From Myxacorys almedinensis A (GTDB lineage Bacteria; Cyanobacteriota; Cyanobacteriia; Leptolyngbyales; Leptolyngbyaceae), in assembly GCF_010091945.1 (NCBI RefSeq), contig NZ_WVIE01000015.1, forward strand, positions 1-64,000: a DNA stretch of 64,000 nucleotides, in the 5' to 3' direction. Made by a program: the position numbers and the translations under genes. Positions 2,498-48,666 of this stretch are shown here, piece after piece (positions within the stretch are counted from its first letter, which is position 1; the number at the start of each line of letters is the position of its first letter). The notes beneath the pieces were generated by a model, which had not been told where the DNA came from, made no database searches, and was given only the letters and a program-made list of their open reading frames with translations.

Positions 2498-3466
2498 CTA
2501 GCAGCATCCGCCACCGTCGTAATGCCAGGTAGAATCAGTAATAATCACATCTTGCGGAAATTGCAGGGCAAACTTAGCCGCCGTTTTGTCGCAGACTGCC
2601 AAGGGAATGCCACGTTGCAGCAAATGACCGGCGCGATCATCGAGGAGGGGATCTGCCCCACTATAAATTGCTGTTTTTCCGGTGAATACACAGGCTCCGT
2701 CTTCAGGCATCGGCACTTTAAACGAAACCGAATCTAGGCTTTCTAGGAGGAGAGGTTTGTCTAGGTTGTAACTTTGGGTATCTAGAAGCCGATAGGGACG
2801 CCGGGCGCGAATTTCGATCTGCCCAAACCCGATCCCCACCAAGTGCTGAATATATTCATCGTACGTCAACGCGCCCGATAGACAGAGGGCGCGTAAACGT
2901 TCGTCTTCCTGAAGATGGAGCGGAATTGGACGGGTCGCGATCGGGTCGCTCATGATCAGCCGCCCACCAGGCTTCAGTACCCGATATGCTTCGATTAGCG
3001 CCCGTTTCAGATCTTCAGGTTCAAAGATATTAAACAAACAGTTTTGCGCCACAATATTTACTGAGGCATCCGGCACAGGCAACTCAAAGGCATCCCCCGC
3101 CAAAATGGTCACAAAATTGGGGTTAAACCAATCATTTTCCTGGGCGGCGACTTCCAAGTTAGAGGTCGCTGCTTTCCGCATTTCAGGAACGGGATCAACG
3201 GCAATCACGCCTCCCGGCTGACGGCAGAAATAGGCAAACTGAAGTGCCTCTATTCCGCCCCCGACTCCGATATAAAGCACGGTTGGCTCACCAAATAGCT
3301 CTGCCGAATGCACCGTTGACCCGCAACCATAGTTCATCTGATGCATGATTTCCGGTATCATCAGCCCTGGTAATTGGAGCGGCGGAGTGCTAACGCAGCA
3401 TAAGCCAACTTGAGGTGTTTCGGCGGCTTCGGCATACACTTGGGCAGTGGTTTCTAGATAACTCAT
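2498..3466 (-). CDS. arsM: Arsenite S-adenosylmethionine methyltransferase, arsenosugar type
   Basis: A 322-residue protein. It should methylate arsenite using SAM, the first committed step to methylarsenicals and arsenosugars, in the cytoplasm. The SAM site is visible as YIGVGGGIEALQFA (about residues 65-78), with an acidic GVIAVDPVPEM strand end and a GDAFELPVPDASVN segment. Cysteines likely to bind arsenic are C23-C24 (GLCC), C48 (NYGCGS) and the terminal GGGCC. The N-terminal block (GLCCVSTPPLQLPGL) is what I associate with cyanobacterial arsenosugar ArsM rather than ordinary class I methyltransferases. The radical-SAM partner ArsS usually expected nearby is absent from its immediate neighbours, and no arsR-like gene is visible. 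Confidence 0.88.
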   Translation of the reverse strand: MSYLETTAQVYAEAAETPQVGLCCVSTPPLQLPGLMIPEIMHQMNYGCGSTVHSAELFGEPTVLYIGVGGGIEALQFAYFCRQPGGVIAVDPVPEMRKAATSNLEVAAQENDWFNPNFVTILAGDAFELPVPDASVNIVAQNCLFNIFEPEDLKRALIEAYRVLKPGGRLIMSDPIATRPIPLHLQEDERLRALCLSGALTYDEYIQHLVGIGFGQIEIRARRPYRLLDTQSYNLDKPLLLESLDSVSFKVPMPEDGACVFTGKTAIYSGADPLLDDRAGHLLQRGIPLAVCDKTAAKFALQFPQDVIITDSTWHYDGGGCC

Positions 3467-3769
3467 AGCTATTTTTTTAGCGATCGTAAGTTTGAAACAA
3501 GGGACGAAGAAAATTAGTGGAACCGGGAAGTTCCAGGTTAACTACTCTCCCGTGCTTAGTTTAGATTTCTGATGGTCGTTGGAAACTGTTGCGTCTGCCA
3601 CTAAATTCAGGGTTTCTTCAGGGTTTCTTTTAGATTTGTCGTTTGCTTCGGGAGTGACTGGCGCTCAATCAACGGGTTAGAACCAGGCTGGCAGCCTTAG
3701 CCGCTAGAAAAGGGTCATCCTGTTTCTAGCGGCTAAGCTGTAGTGCTCAACTAAGAGGGGTAGCCTCTC
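3467..3769. other. Intergenic region with a 15-bp perfect hairpin
   Basis: Bases 3696-3710 and 3723-3737 are perfect inverted repeats (CTTAGCCGCTAGAAA and its complement) around a 12-base loop. The region lies 3' of the DUF4335 gene (stop at 3770) and 5' of arsM. It could end DUF4335 transcription, although no clear T-run follows. A short direct repeat, CAGGGTTTCTT twice, is present near 3610. Confidence 0.6.
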
Positions 3770-5197
3770 TTACTCAGCAAGCGTCTGCACTGCGCCGTTT
3801 GTTTTGAGGAGAAGCCGAACTTTTGTTTCTTGCCCATTGGGGTTGGGCGTAGCGATCACTTCTCCAAGGGCAGGAATGGAGGCGCGATCGCGCCATGAGG
3901 TAGCGTTTGGGCCGACTGGCTCCACCGCTTGTAGAGAGCCATCAGCCGCTAAAGTCAGAATAAACTGAATGTCATCTGGCAATCCCTGCGGCACTTGCCA
4001 ACGCGAGGCAAAGTAGGTCTTAAGTTCATCTACTTGGGGTTGCGCGGTTTCGGCAGAGGCTTGCCTTGATGCAGCGGCAACGCTGGGTAGCTGTGGGCGG
4101 CTTGCTGCTTCGGGTGCTCTCTCAGGGGTGGAGGCAGCATTATTCTCAGGCGAAAGAGGAAGCGGATCACCATCGCGATCTTGAGAGGCTGAGCCAGCGT
4201 TTGAGGGAGCTTTGGCAACCGCTTGAGGGCTTTTAGCACCACTCGCCGTTTGATCAGGAATTGGGGCAACTTGCACCGATCCTTCGGGGACATCTCGGAC
4301 AGGCAGTTGAATGCCCGATTGTGAGTTTTCGGGAACGGTTTGTTCAACTTTAAATCTAGGCAGATTTTCAGGAGCCGGCGGAGCAGAGAGGGGGCTGGTT
4401 TCTAGGGACGGTAACGGTACGGTGGTGGTGGGCAGGCTAGGCAGCGTCAGGGAAGAGGGCGGTGGGCTGCTTGGTAATGGCTGCACTGCCAAGCGCTGGT
4501 CAGAACTGCTTGCGCCCTGGCTAGCCGCCGTTTGAGGGGTGGGTTGGCGATCGAGAACGCGGACGGCAGTGGTGGTTAGCCCGATCGCGACTAGAGACAC
4601 GGCAGCGATTTTGCCCCAGGCGGGAGGGTTGCTTGCCCAGCTCGGTCGATTTAAAGTGGGAATAGCGGTAACGTCGGCAGAATATTCGTCGAGTGCCGTC
4701 GCCAGATCAGCCAGTTGAACCGCACTCAGTTGGATGGTGGAACCCGATTCATCGGTTGCCAGCGTGCCAAGATGCAACTCATGAGACAGCATCCCTTTGG
4801 GTTCGAGGTAGATACCTGCGGCATTGCCTTCAGAATCGAAGGGATGCCGATTGAAACTGGGGAGGCTTTGAGGAACGGCAACAGCACCATTGGAGAAACC
4901 GTCGCGCCCTGCAATAAAGCTGGAGGACTGATGCAAAAATTTCTGGACATAGCTGGTGACGGCATCACACAACGCTTGAAGCTGGTTGCGATCGCCGCGC
5001 ACTGCTACCCACTGGTCTTCCCCAACGCGAGGATCGTCAAAACTGAGTTTGAAGCGGACATTCTTTAGCGCAGATTGCCCGATCCAGCGAGACAGGGGAG
5101 AACTGTTCGCTGCAATTTCGAGGGTGCAGGTGGGCGGAGTGTACCGTCTTAAAACTGAGGTTGCAGGGGACATGGGTTCAAGTGTTGAATTCGTCAA
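3770..5197 (-). CDS. DUF4335 domain protein, proline-rich, one membrane segment
   Basis: A 475-residue protein. Residues about 10-90 carry the DUF4335 signature (LRRYTPPTCTLEI, then FKLSFDDPR). A single hydrophobic segment follows near residues 197-212 (IAAVSLVAIGLTTTAVRVL), then a long Pro/Ser/Ala/Gln-rich linker, and a C-terminal folded block (FASRWQVPQGLPDDIQFILTL). This implies a cytoplasmic N-terminus anchored to a membrane with an extended outer part. The DUF3038 gene lies 27 bases upstream on the same strand; these two families commonly occur side by side in cyanobacteria. A second start at 5173 (MSPATS) is possible. The function is unknown. Confidence 0.85.
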   Translation of the reverse strand: MTNSTLEPMSPATSVLRRYTPPTCTLEIAANSSPLSRWIGQSALKNVRFKLSFDDPRVGEDQWVAVRGDRNQLQALCDAVTSYVQKFLHQSSSFIAGRDGFSNGAVAVPQSLPSFNRHPFDSEGNAAGIYLEPKGMLSHELHLGTLATDESGSTIQLSAVQLADLATALDEYSADVTAIPTLNRPSWASNPPAWGKIAAVSLVAIGLTTTAVRVLDRQPTPQTAASQGASSSDQRLAVQPLPSSPPPSSLTLPSLPTTTVPLPSLETSPLSAPPAPENLPRFKVEQTVPENSQSGIQLPVRDVPEGSVQVAPIPDQTASGAKSPQAVAKAPSNAGSASQDRDGDPLPLSPENNAASTPERAPEAASRPQLPSVAAASRQASAETAQPQVDELKTYFASRWQVPQGLPDDIQFILTLAADGSLQAVEPVGPNATSWRDRASIPALGEVIATPNPNGQETKVRLLLKTNGAVQTLAE

Positions 5198-47222: not shown

Positions 47223-48416
47223 ATGGAGAAGCAGCCGCTCAGGTTAATCGCAGGTTTCGTCTCAATGCTGGTTGCGCTCAGTGTTACTGTCTATGGGTTT
47301 GCTTCAGAGTATGGGTTTGCTTCAGAGTTTCGCGAAGCCCCTCGCCCCCCCGCCGGACTGGTCTATATCGGGGAACCGGCGCAAGTGGTGGTCAATTCTA
47401 GCTTTGTCAGCCCCCTTGTAGAAGTGTTTGGAGATGTGGCGATCGGGCAGAAGAGCTTTGTCGCGAGTAACACCATTATTCGGGCTGACCCCGGAACGCG
47501 AGTGTGTATTGGCAACGAAACGAATCTACAAGACAACATTTTGGTTTTGGGATCGCGCTCATTGCCGTCCCCGTCATCGTTCTGCGGCAGCCGCTCTAGC
47601 AGCACTCAAGAGCGAACTAGCATTGCTCACCAAGCGGTGATTGTCAATTCTCGGATTGGGAAATTTGCATTTGTTGGGTTTCGATCGCGCATCACCAACA
47701 GCATTCTCGAAGACGGAGCCTTTGTGCTGCATGGGGCAACCGTGACAGGGGTGCGGATTCCTAAAAACCGCTTGGTGGCCATTGGGCAAACCCTCACGAC
47801 GCAGGCTCAAGCCGATGCTCTGCCGTTCAAAAGTGAAGCTCACAGCGCCTTTCAGGAAGACGTTTTGGAGGTAAACGAAGAGTTTGCAGAACACTATTCT
47901 GAGTTGTGTGAGACCGAGGGCTGTGATGCTGTAACGGGCGTCAGTATTGCACCCCGCACCTCGTGGAATGCGAACCCCGTCAAGCCGACGCTAGGAGTGG
48001 GGGTTTGGGTAGAAGAATTTGCTCGGCTTGTAGGGGATGTGCGCTTGGGAGCCAATAGCGTTGTAGGACGCCGCACCTCGATTCGGGCAGATGAAGGGGC
48101 ACCGATTGTGATTGGTGAGAATGCAGTGATTGAAGAGCGTGTGACGTTTCATGCGCTGAAGGGAACGAGCATTCATATCGGTCGTAATTTGGCGACAGAT
48201 AACAACATTGTGTTTCACGGACCGCTCACGGTCGGCGATAACCTCACGATTGGCGATGATGCGATTTTGTTTCGTTCGACGGTTGGCGATCGCGTGACGA
48301 TTGGTGCGGGGGCGATCGTGGTTGGTGTAAGGCTGCGCGACGATGTTCAGATTCGCGATCGCGCGGTGATTACGACGCAAGCTCAGGCGGATGCCTTGCC
48401 CCTACGACAGGCATAA
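47223..48416 (+). CDS. Exported double left-handed beta-helix protein, gamma-carbonic-anhydrase-like
   Basis: A 397-residue protein. A signal peptide ends near residue 26-35, where an in-frame duplication (YGFASE twice) occurs. Two hexapeptide-repeat beta-helix domains follow, about 40-215 and 245-395, each with IRADxG and each closing with the same TTQAQADAL motif, so they arose by duplication. Compared with gamma carbonic anhydrases, which bind zinc with three histidines, domain 1 keeps one (SIAHQA) and domain 2 keeps two (VTFHAL and VFHGP, with Asp where the third His is usual). A carbonic anhydrase role is therefore possible but unproven. It is divergent from rpsD. Confidence 0.85.
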
Positions 48417-48447
48417 ATCTAAGCGAGACGGGCGTTACAATAGACCC

Positions 48448-48666
48448 ATGAAGCTACTTTTAATTGGGCTAGTTCGCGGCTACCGGGTGATTATTTCACC
48501 TCTGTTTTTGCCGACCTGCCGCTTTCAGCCCACCTGTTCCCAGTATGCGATCGATGCGATCGCAACCCATGGTGCACTCAAGGGCAGTTGGTTGGCGACA
48601 AGGCGAATTTGCCGCTGTCATCCCTTGGCGTCGGGGGGCTACGATCCGGTGCCGCCGAGAGACTAA
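48448..48666 (+). CDS. yidD: Membrane protein insertion efficiency factor YidD
   Basis: About 72 residues from ATG at 48448. The sequence [44 protein letters not shown] contains the three-cysteine YidD signature. It helps YidC-dependent insertion of membrane proteins at the inner face of the membrane. The longer frame from 48391 overlaps the preceding gene and is not supported. It starts 31 bases after the beta-helix protein stop on the same strand. Confidence 0.93.

Follow-up and report, generated by a model that had tools for sequence, protein, structure and literature searches.

The open reading frame at positions 47,223 to 48,416 of the window (the whole 64,000-nucleotide stretch of Myxacorys almedinensis A DNA analysed here) codes for two domains related to gamma-class carbonic anhydrases (gamma-CAs), and the metal ligands and further site residues of this enzyme class are divided between the two. 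We consider it probable, at about three chances in four, that the protein represents an exported gamma-class CA in which two complementary half-sites create one hybrid metal site at the interface of the second domain (D2) with the first (D1). The division of the ligand histidines recurs without exception in the related tandem proteins that we collected from several bacterial phyla.

The tandem gene and the kinship of its product

The gene and its main parts are located in the window as follows:

47223..48416, forward strand: tandem gamma-CA-like gene, open reading frame with ATG start, 397 amino acids plus stop; match to Pfam Hexapep, matches to Cam and CcmM in both domains
47223..47312, forward strand: probable Sec signal peptide, about residues 1-30, assigned by eye; relatives also carry hydrophobic leaders
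47355..47918, forward strand: domain D1, residues 45-232, gamma-CA beta-helix plus C-terminal helix, 'H117 side' kept
47928..48413, forward strand: domain D2, residues 236-397, gamma-CA beta-helix, 'H81/H122 side' kept

The best match of the protein to a solved structure was 9lin (dGCA1; E 1.6e-26), and further matches were obtained to Cam of Methanosarcina thermophila (E 1.8e-25) and to CcmM (E 1.1e-22), with stretches of D1 and D2 each aligning. Judging from these alignments, the kinship of both domains to gamma-CAs is far beyond chance. The tandem pair of gamma-CA domains proposed in the preliminary description is thereby confirmed, and the motifs which it reported as common to both domains are indeed present, namely TTQAQADAL and IRADxG (IRADPG in D1 and IRADEG in D2). 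The Pfam model Hexapep scored 51.3 bits against a gathering threshold of 27, and the NCBIfam models of CcmM (NF053794) and carb_anhyd (NF040597) scored 183.6 and 159.3 bits, respectively, which leaves the protein below the curated cut-offs of both equivalogs (550 and 380). At the superfamily level, it is a hexapeptide left-handed beta-helix protein and sequence kin of Cam. Weak matches to models of the CysE, GlmU and LpxD type could point to a hexapeptide acyltransferase rather than a relative of carbonic anhydrases, but the best acyltransferase model reached 46.4 bits versus the two scores given above, and among solved structures the closest relatives are gamma-CAs and CcmM; this identity was rejected on the model scores as extremely unlikely.

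Cam (PDB 1QRG, 1THJ) shares its beta-helix fold with the tandem protein, and the Cam residues His81, His117, His122, Arg59, Asp61, Glu62, Asn73, Gln75, Asp76 and Asn202 are all found if the tandem protein is taken as a whole. Cam has one domain per chain, forms homotrimers with three equivalent sites and carries an acidic loop, whereas the tandem chain consists of two half-site domains. The set characterising the Cam subclass is present but divided, with Glu62 in D2 and Asn73, Gln75 and Asn202 in D1, and the acidic loop with Glu84 is absent, D2 reading HALKGTS. The N-terminal gamma-CA domain of CcmM from beta-carboxysomes, which gave the top-scoring NCBIfam model, has the same residue set, yet within one domain. 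CcmM is a carboxysome protein with RbcS-like repeats and no export signal, whereas the window protein stops after D2 and starts with a hydrophobic leader of the export type. The window genome separately encodes a CcmM-like protein, in an open frame of 679 amino acids on contig C4.

An AF2 model calculated from 67 rows had an only moderate mean pLDDT of 72.9 and a pTM of 0.82; an earlier one from 10 rows (pLDDT 47.8, pTM 0.41) was too poor for use. Foldseek returned Cam (1qq0, E 2.5e-4) as the top solved match of the model, and VIA yielded a Z of 9.7 to CcmM (7o4z) and Cam (1qrl) for the D1 part, which is what this comparison mainly probes, the assignment of D2 being based on sequence. Because the model shows helices only at model residues 150-154, 161-187 and 342-345, D2 is predicted to lack a long C-terminal helix; it does have a Cam-like N-terminal segment.

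The hydrophobic N-terminus of the window protein resembles a Sec-type signal peptide by eye and probably is one, in agreement with the export suggested earlier, and we infer a location outside the cytoplasm. Some Actinomycetota relatives carry lipobox-like or Tat-like leaders, also by eye. The preliminary description had called export unusual for relatives of gamma-CAs; it appears less so than claimed, as one signal peptide is marked in the gamma-CA alignment of PMC5746736, according to its figure legend. The signal-peptide region of the window gene contains a perfect tandem duplication of 18 bases (47292-47327), resulting in two copies of YGFASE, and a near relative (L036) has a single copy of this segment.

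The gene is flanked by rpsD on one side and yidD on the other. The yidD frame as listed (48391-48666) begins within the 3' end of the tandem gene, and an in-frame ATG further on, at 48448, is by eye the likelier start. The neighbouring genes, namely phosphonate-type ABC genes (by eye), rpsD, yidD and an M15 peptidase gene, provided no functional lead; several of them recur in two close loci only (L036 and L083).

Survey of tandem proteins

In a phylum sample of 386 genomes, 117 gave at least one match at E <= 1e-12, for the most part CcmM, with 4 candidates scored per genome; a scan of genome contigs gave at least 22 loci. Profile searches at E <= 1e-40 recorded matches in 3/42 genomes of the window's own order, 18/291 of the order and 70/217 of the family of G380, and 12/19 of the family of G306. 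At E <= 1e-30, 7/296 genomes matched in the phylum of G800, an Actinomycetota MAG which holds locus L055. By our reading, all matching rows of the order, family and Actinomycetota-phylum searches were taken into the survey.

Tandem proteins occur in Cyanobacteria, on a Deinococcus plasmid and in Actinomycetota. One locus (L052) lies on a short contig of a Burkholderiales MAG and may be misbinned. The nearest kin of the window protein, L049, is identical to L036 of genome G185. The copy on plasmid 3 of Deinococcus deserti (L111, WP_012694801.1, 'carbonate dehydratase') is 68% identical to the window protein and has the same split site, but is encoded on a plasmid and in another phylum, which suggests, as far as the sequences go, horizontal transfer between phyla. 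No study of this protein was found among the literature matches listed for the organism.

The first set comprised 66 full-length tandem proteins, 62 of them distinct, which fall into 27 of type A (the window's type) and 35 of type B (the Nostoc type). The two types are about 27% identical on average, whereas the minimum identity is 53% within type A and 40% within type B. Adding 7 proteins from Deinococcus and Actinomycetota led to 69, and a further 43 open reading frames (33 distinct) to 102 distinct proteins. Excluded from the counts were the single-domain loci L047, L048 and L068, a 175-residue frame containing D2 only (L102), frames of less than 360 residues (L033 in two pieces, L056, the short copy of L097, and L100 in two pieces), L119, which lies in two frames, and exact copies (4 in the 66-protein set and 10 in the 102-protein set). 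The tandem gene is spread over two frames in L033, L100 and L119, which may reflect an assembly error or a real break. By eye, the pieces of L033 and L119 carry the same partition of site residues as the counted proteins, and L056 carries its D1 part.

Partition of the site residues

Alignment to solved chains placed Leu109, His136 and Val141 of D1, and His310, Asn327 and His332 of D2, at the positions of the Cam ligands 81, 117 and 122. The residues kept in the window protein are listed with their occurrence among the 102 distinct proteins:

47523..47534, forward strand: D1 Asn101, Gln103, Asp104, equivalent to Cam Asn73, Gln75, Asp76; Asn 100/102, Gln 102/102, Asp 100/102
47628..47630, forward strand: D1 His136, equivalent to Cam His117, putative metal ligand; 102/102
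47874..47876, forward strand: D1 Asn218 in the C-terminal helix, aligned to Cam Asn202; 102/102
48084..48095, forward strand: D2 Arg288, Ala289, Asp290, Glu291, equivalent to the Cam Arg59-Glu62 stretch; Arg, Asp and Glu (Cam Arg59, Asp61, Glu62) each 102/102
48150..48152, forward strand: D2 His310, equivalent to Cam His81, putative metal ligand; 102/102
48216..48218, forward strand: D2 His332, equivalent to Cam His122, putative metal ligand; 102/102

The counts of one ligand histidine in D1 and two in D2 given in the preliminary description are therefore correct, whereas the Asp it assigned to the lost ligand of D2 is an Asn in the window protein and occurs in 30 of the 102 aligned relatives. 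The partition, with only His117 in D1 and only His81 and His122 in D2, held at each stage of the count (62/62, 69/69 and then 102/102), and all three ligand histidines inside one domain were found in neither D1 (0/102) nor D2 (0/102). The single-domain rows used as a control, mostly CcmM N-termini from fetched loci and including two overlapping copies of the window genome's CcmM, have all three in one domain in 33 of 35 cases, the exceptions being L045 and L046.

The further residues follow the ligands. The few exceptions on the D1 side are Asp for Asn73 and Glu for Asp76, and on the D2 side an N-terminal Cam-like Pro-x-Thr-x-x-Asn is also kept (Pro 102/102, Thr 100/102, Asn 101/102). All ten kept site positions are at least 97% conserved and are among the 40 of 346 core positions at that level, whereas none of the nine opposite positions (Arg59, Asp61, Glu62, His81 and His122 in D1; Asn73, Gln75, Asp76 and His117 in D2) reaches it (Fisher p = 1.1e-5 for 69 rows, which is only indicative for related sequences). 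The ligands are partitioned strictly, the other residues less so: Arg59 is found in 24/102 D1 domains and Asp76 in 32/102 D2 domains, and Asp61 is still present in 19/62 D1 domains of the 62-protein alignment, from which the D1 figures for Asp61 and Glu62 were taken because a gap shifts these columns in the larger alignments. The window D1 itself retains Arg87 and Asp89, the equivalents of Arg59 and Asp61. The partition, its invariance and the kinship to Cam and CcmM can be read directly from the aligned proteins.

These data bear on the possibility that the protein is a degenerate pseudoenzyme with a decayed metal site, serving only as a scaffold or binding protein. Neither domain alone has the full His triad, some CcmM proteins are treated as non-functional CAs in PMC5472144, and the single-domain relatives L045 and L046 have lost ligands. 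However, decay would not leave one complementary set invariant in 102/102 proteins across subtypes of about 27% identity, and the non-ligand catalytic residues are retained on the same faces as the ligands. In view of this complementary and invariant loss of ligands, we rejected degeneration as the main reading and regard it as quite unlikely.

The proposed hybrid site

Which residues would face each other in the tandem proteins was taken from known structures. In gamma-CA trimers, the metal is bound by His81 and His122 of one monomer and His117 of its neighbour (PMC4519908). The table of the trimer interface in PMC8000050 has the N-terminus, R45, D47, H66 and H89 on one side and Q60, D61, H84 and the C-terminal helix on the other, with an inter-monomer salt bridge between Arg45 and Asp61. 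We mapped these residues by their spacing to Cam R59, D61, H81 and H122 on side one and Q75, D76 and H117 on side two, and the same text supports this mapping by equating Cam Glu62 with a neighbouring position. D2 has retained side one, including Arg59 and the Cam-like N-terminal segment, and D1 has retained side two, including Asp76 and the helix with Asn202. The linker joins the C-terminus of D1 to the N-terminus of D2, which by this comparison are presumably the ends that touch at the published interface.

Because D1 keeps the ligand 117 and D2 keeps 81 and 122, a D2:D1 interface would have the full ligand set. The degenerate zinc site implied by the preliminary description is not upheld, as the histidines kept in 102/102 proteins are exactly those that face each other across one subunit interface in known gamma-CAs. 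A complete site between the domains was the counter-case which that description itself had named; at the level of sequence, the ligand complement of such a site is complete in all 102. At the proposed site, D2 would supply Arg59, Asp61, Glu62, His81 and His122 (Cam numbering), and D1 would supply Asn73, Gln75, Asp76, His117 and, from its C-terminal helix, Asn202. One metal ion, zinc or iron, would be bound where the two faces meet, either within one chain or between chains, and CO2 and HCO3- would be interconverted there, outside the cytoplasm. Iron is stated to be a gamma-CA metal in PMC5746736.

If the presumed oligomer is a three-domain ring like the known trimers, it would combine either two D1 with one D2 or one D1 with two D2 and would thus contain one complete site. 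As strict alternation of D1 and D2 is impossible in such a ring, the two other interfaces would be without a full site. To our knowledge, no tandem protein has been assayed for activity.

A comparable asymmetry is known from the gamma-CA heterotrimer of plant complex I (gammaCA1, gammaCA2 and CAL), which consists of non-identical units and has a complete zinc site at one interface only (PMC7567890, PMC9873573). In Arabidopsis, H130 of gammaCA1 meets H107 and H135 of gammaCA2 at one interface, and Gln101, H130 and Tyr207 at another all come from gammaCA2 (PMC9873573). In contrast to the fused tandem units, the plant proteins are encoded by separate genes, belong to the CamH subclass and are located on complex I; two of the plant subunits retain all three histidines, and neither tandem domain does.

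Gene neighbourhoods and alternative functions

In four loci of one genus (L035, L071, L072 and L073), an open reading frame for a beta-CA with a Tat-like RR leader follows the tandem gene on the same strand, which probably represents a two-gene operon for exported CAs. The frame downstream in L035 is Pfam Pro_CA, the gap amounts to about a dozen bases or less by frame coordinates in the three loci measured, and the tandem gene is present in 4/6 genomes of this genus. A beta-CA gene is the direct neighbour in these 4 of 27 type-A loci and is absent in the other 23. In the type-B loci, a small protein, exported by eye, is encoded next to the tandem gene or one frame away in 29 of the 29 loci examined, for example:

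L037, positions 3284-3895: type-B partner protein

The members of this partner family that were tested had no Pfam or NCBIfam match and look FN3-like by eye only. A related open reading frame (E 2.6e-10) is present in one Actinomycetota locus (L120); no relative was found within the short flanks of the type-B-like Actinomycetota loci L114 and L115.

The uncharacterised partner in all type-B loci examined is one reason to consider that the hybrid site may bind a metal for another job, such as bicarbonate or CO2 sensing, another hydrolase reaction, or binding of a ligand at the vacated interfaces. In the same direction point the absence of the acidic loop and the variability of the Cam84 position, which is Lys in the window protein and E in 56, K in 31, A in 13, T in 1 and R in 1 of the 102 proteins, and plant complex I offers a precedent, as an acyl-CoA is held there where a gamma-CA interface is incomplete (PMC9873573). 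On the other hand, the Cam set for hydrogen bonding and proton transfer (Asn73, Gln75, Asn202 and Glu62) is preserved, a CcmM domain counted as lacking the acidic loop is reported to be active (PMC4519908), and the beta-CA gene adjoins the tandem gene in one genus. A function other than CO2 hydration is therefore rather unlikely in our view, and we continue to favour an exported CA with one hybrid site. As a more tentative and still doubtful extension of this reading, the vacated interfaces may have taken on a new role, e.g., in docking the Nostoc-type partner or in building an asymmetric complex on a bicarbonate system of the membrane. The tandem proteins would then be 'heteromerised' gamma-CAs, an exported family in which complementary loss of half-sites has locked the two fused units of a single chain together and left one site per chain.

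No match to an alpha-CA was obtained in the window genome, and its two matches to beta-CAs are a 247-residue frame without evident leader and a C-terminal remnant. The tandem protein may therefore be the only exported CA of this genome. In the remnant (L122, contig C1), the beta-CA frame is cut to its C-terminal 109 residues, and a different frame is open upstream.

Origin and significance of the tandem proteins

A tree built from 90 domain rows grouped the D1 domains of types A and B together (99/93), and likewise their D2 domains (100/95), which supports one fusion event before the split of the two subtypes; the tree program flagged long branches and unsettled bootstrap values. D1 and D2 do not come out as sisters in this tree: the fork from which D1 and single-domain relatives branch is unresolved. 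The tandem arrangement may therefore stem either from the duplication of a single gene or from the joining of two related ones.

Among the open-licence PMC matches listed, including the available text of PMC13249358, PMC10096703 and PMC5472144, we found none that describes a gamma-CA in tandem form or with a split site. The cyanobacterial CAs named in the reviews among these, as far as their available text goes, are CcaA, CsoSCA and CcmM, and the envelope enzymes EcaA and EcaB (PMC10096703, PMC5472144). Judged by sequence, the gamma-CA site of this fused and apparently exported protein is split in a complementary manner, which is most likely the reverse of decay. If this is true, the tandem proteins would clearly show how a site at an oligomer interface can be shared out between the halves of a fusion protein, and would be a bacterial counterpart of the gamma-CA heterotrimer in plant complex I. 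Scanning such enzymes domain by domain for the His triad would wrongly call them dead, and an exported gamma-CA would be added to the cyanobacterial inventory.
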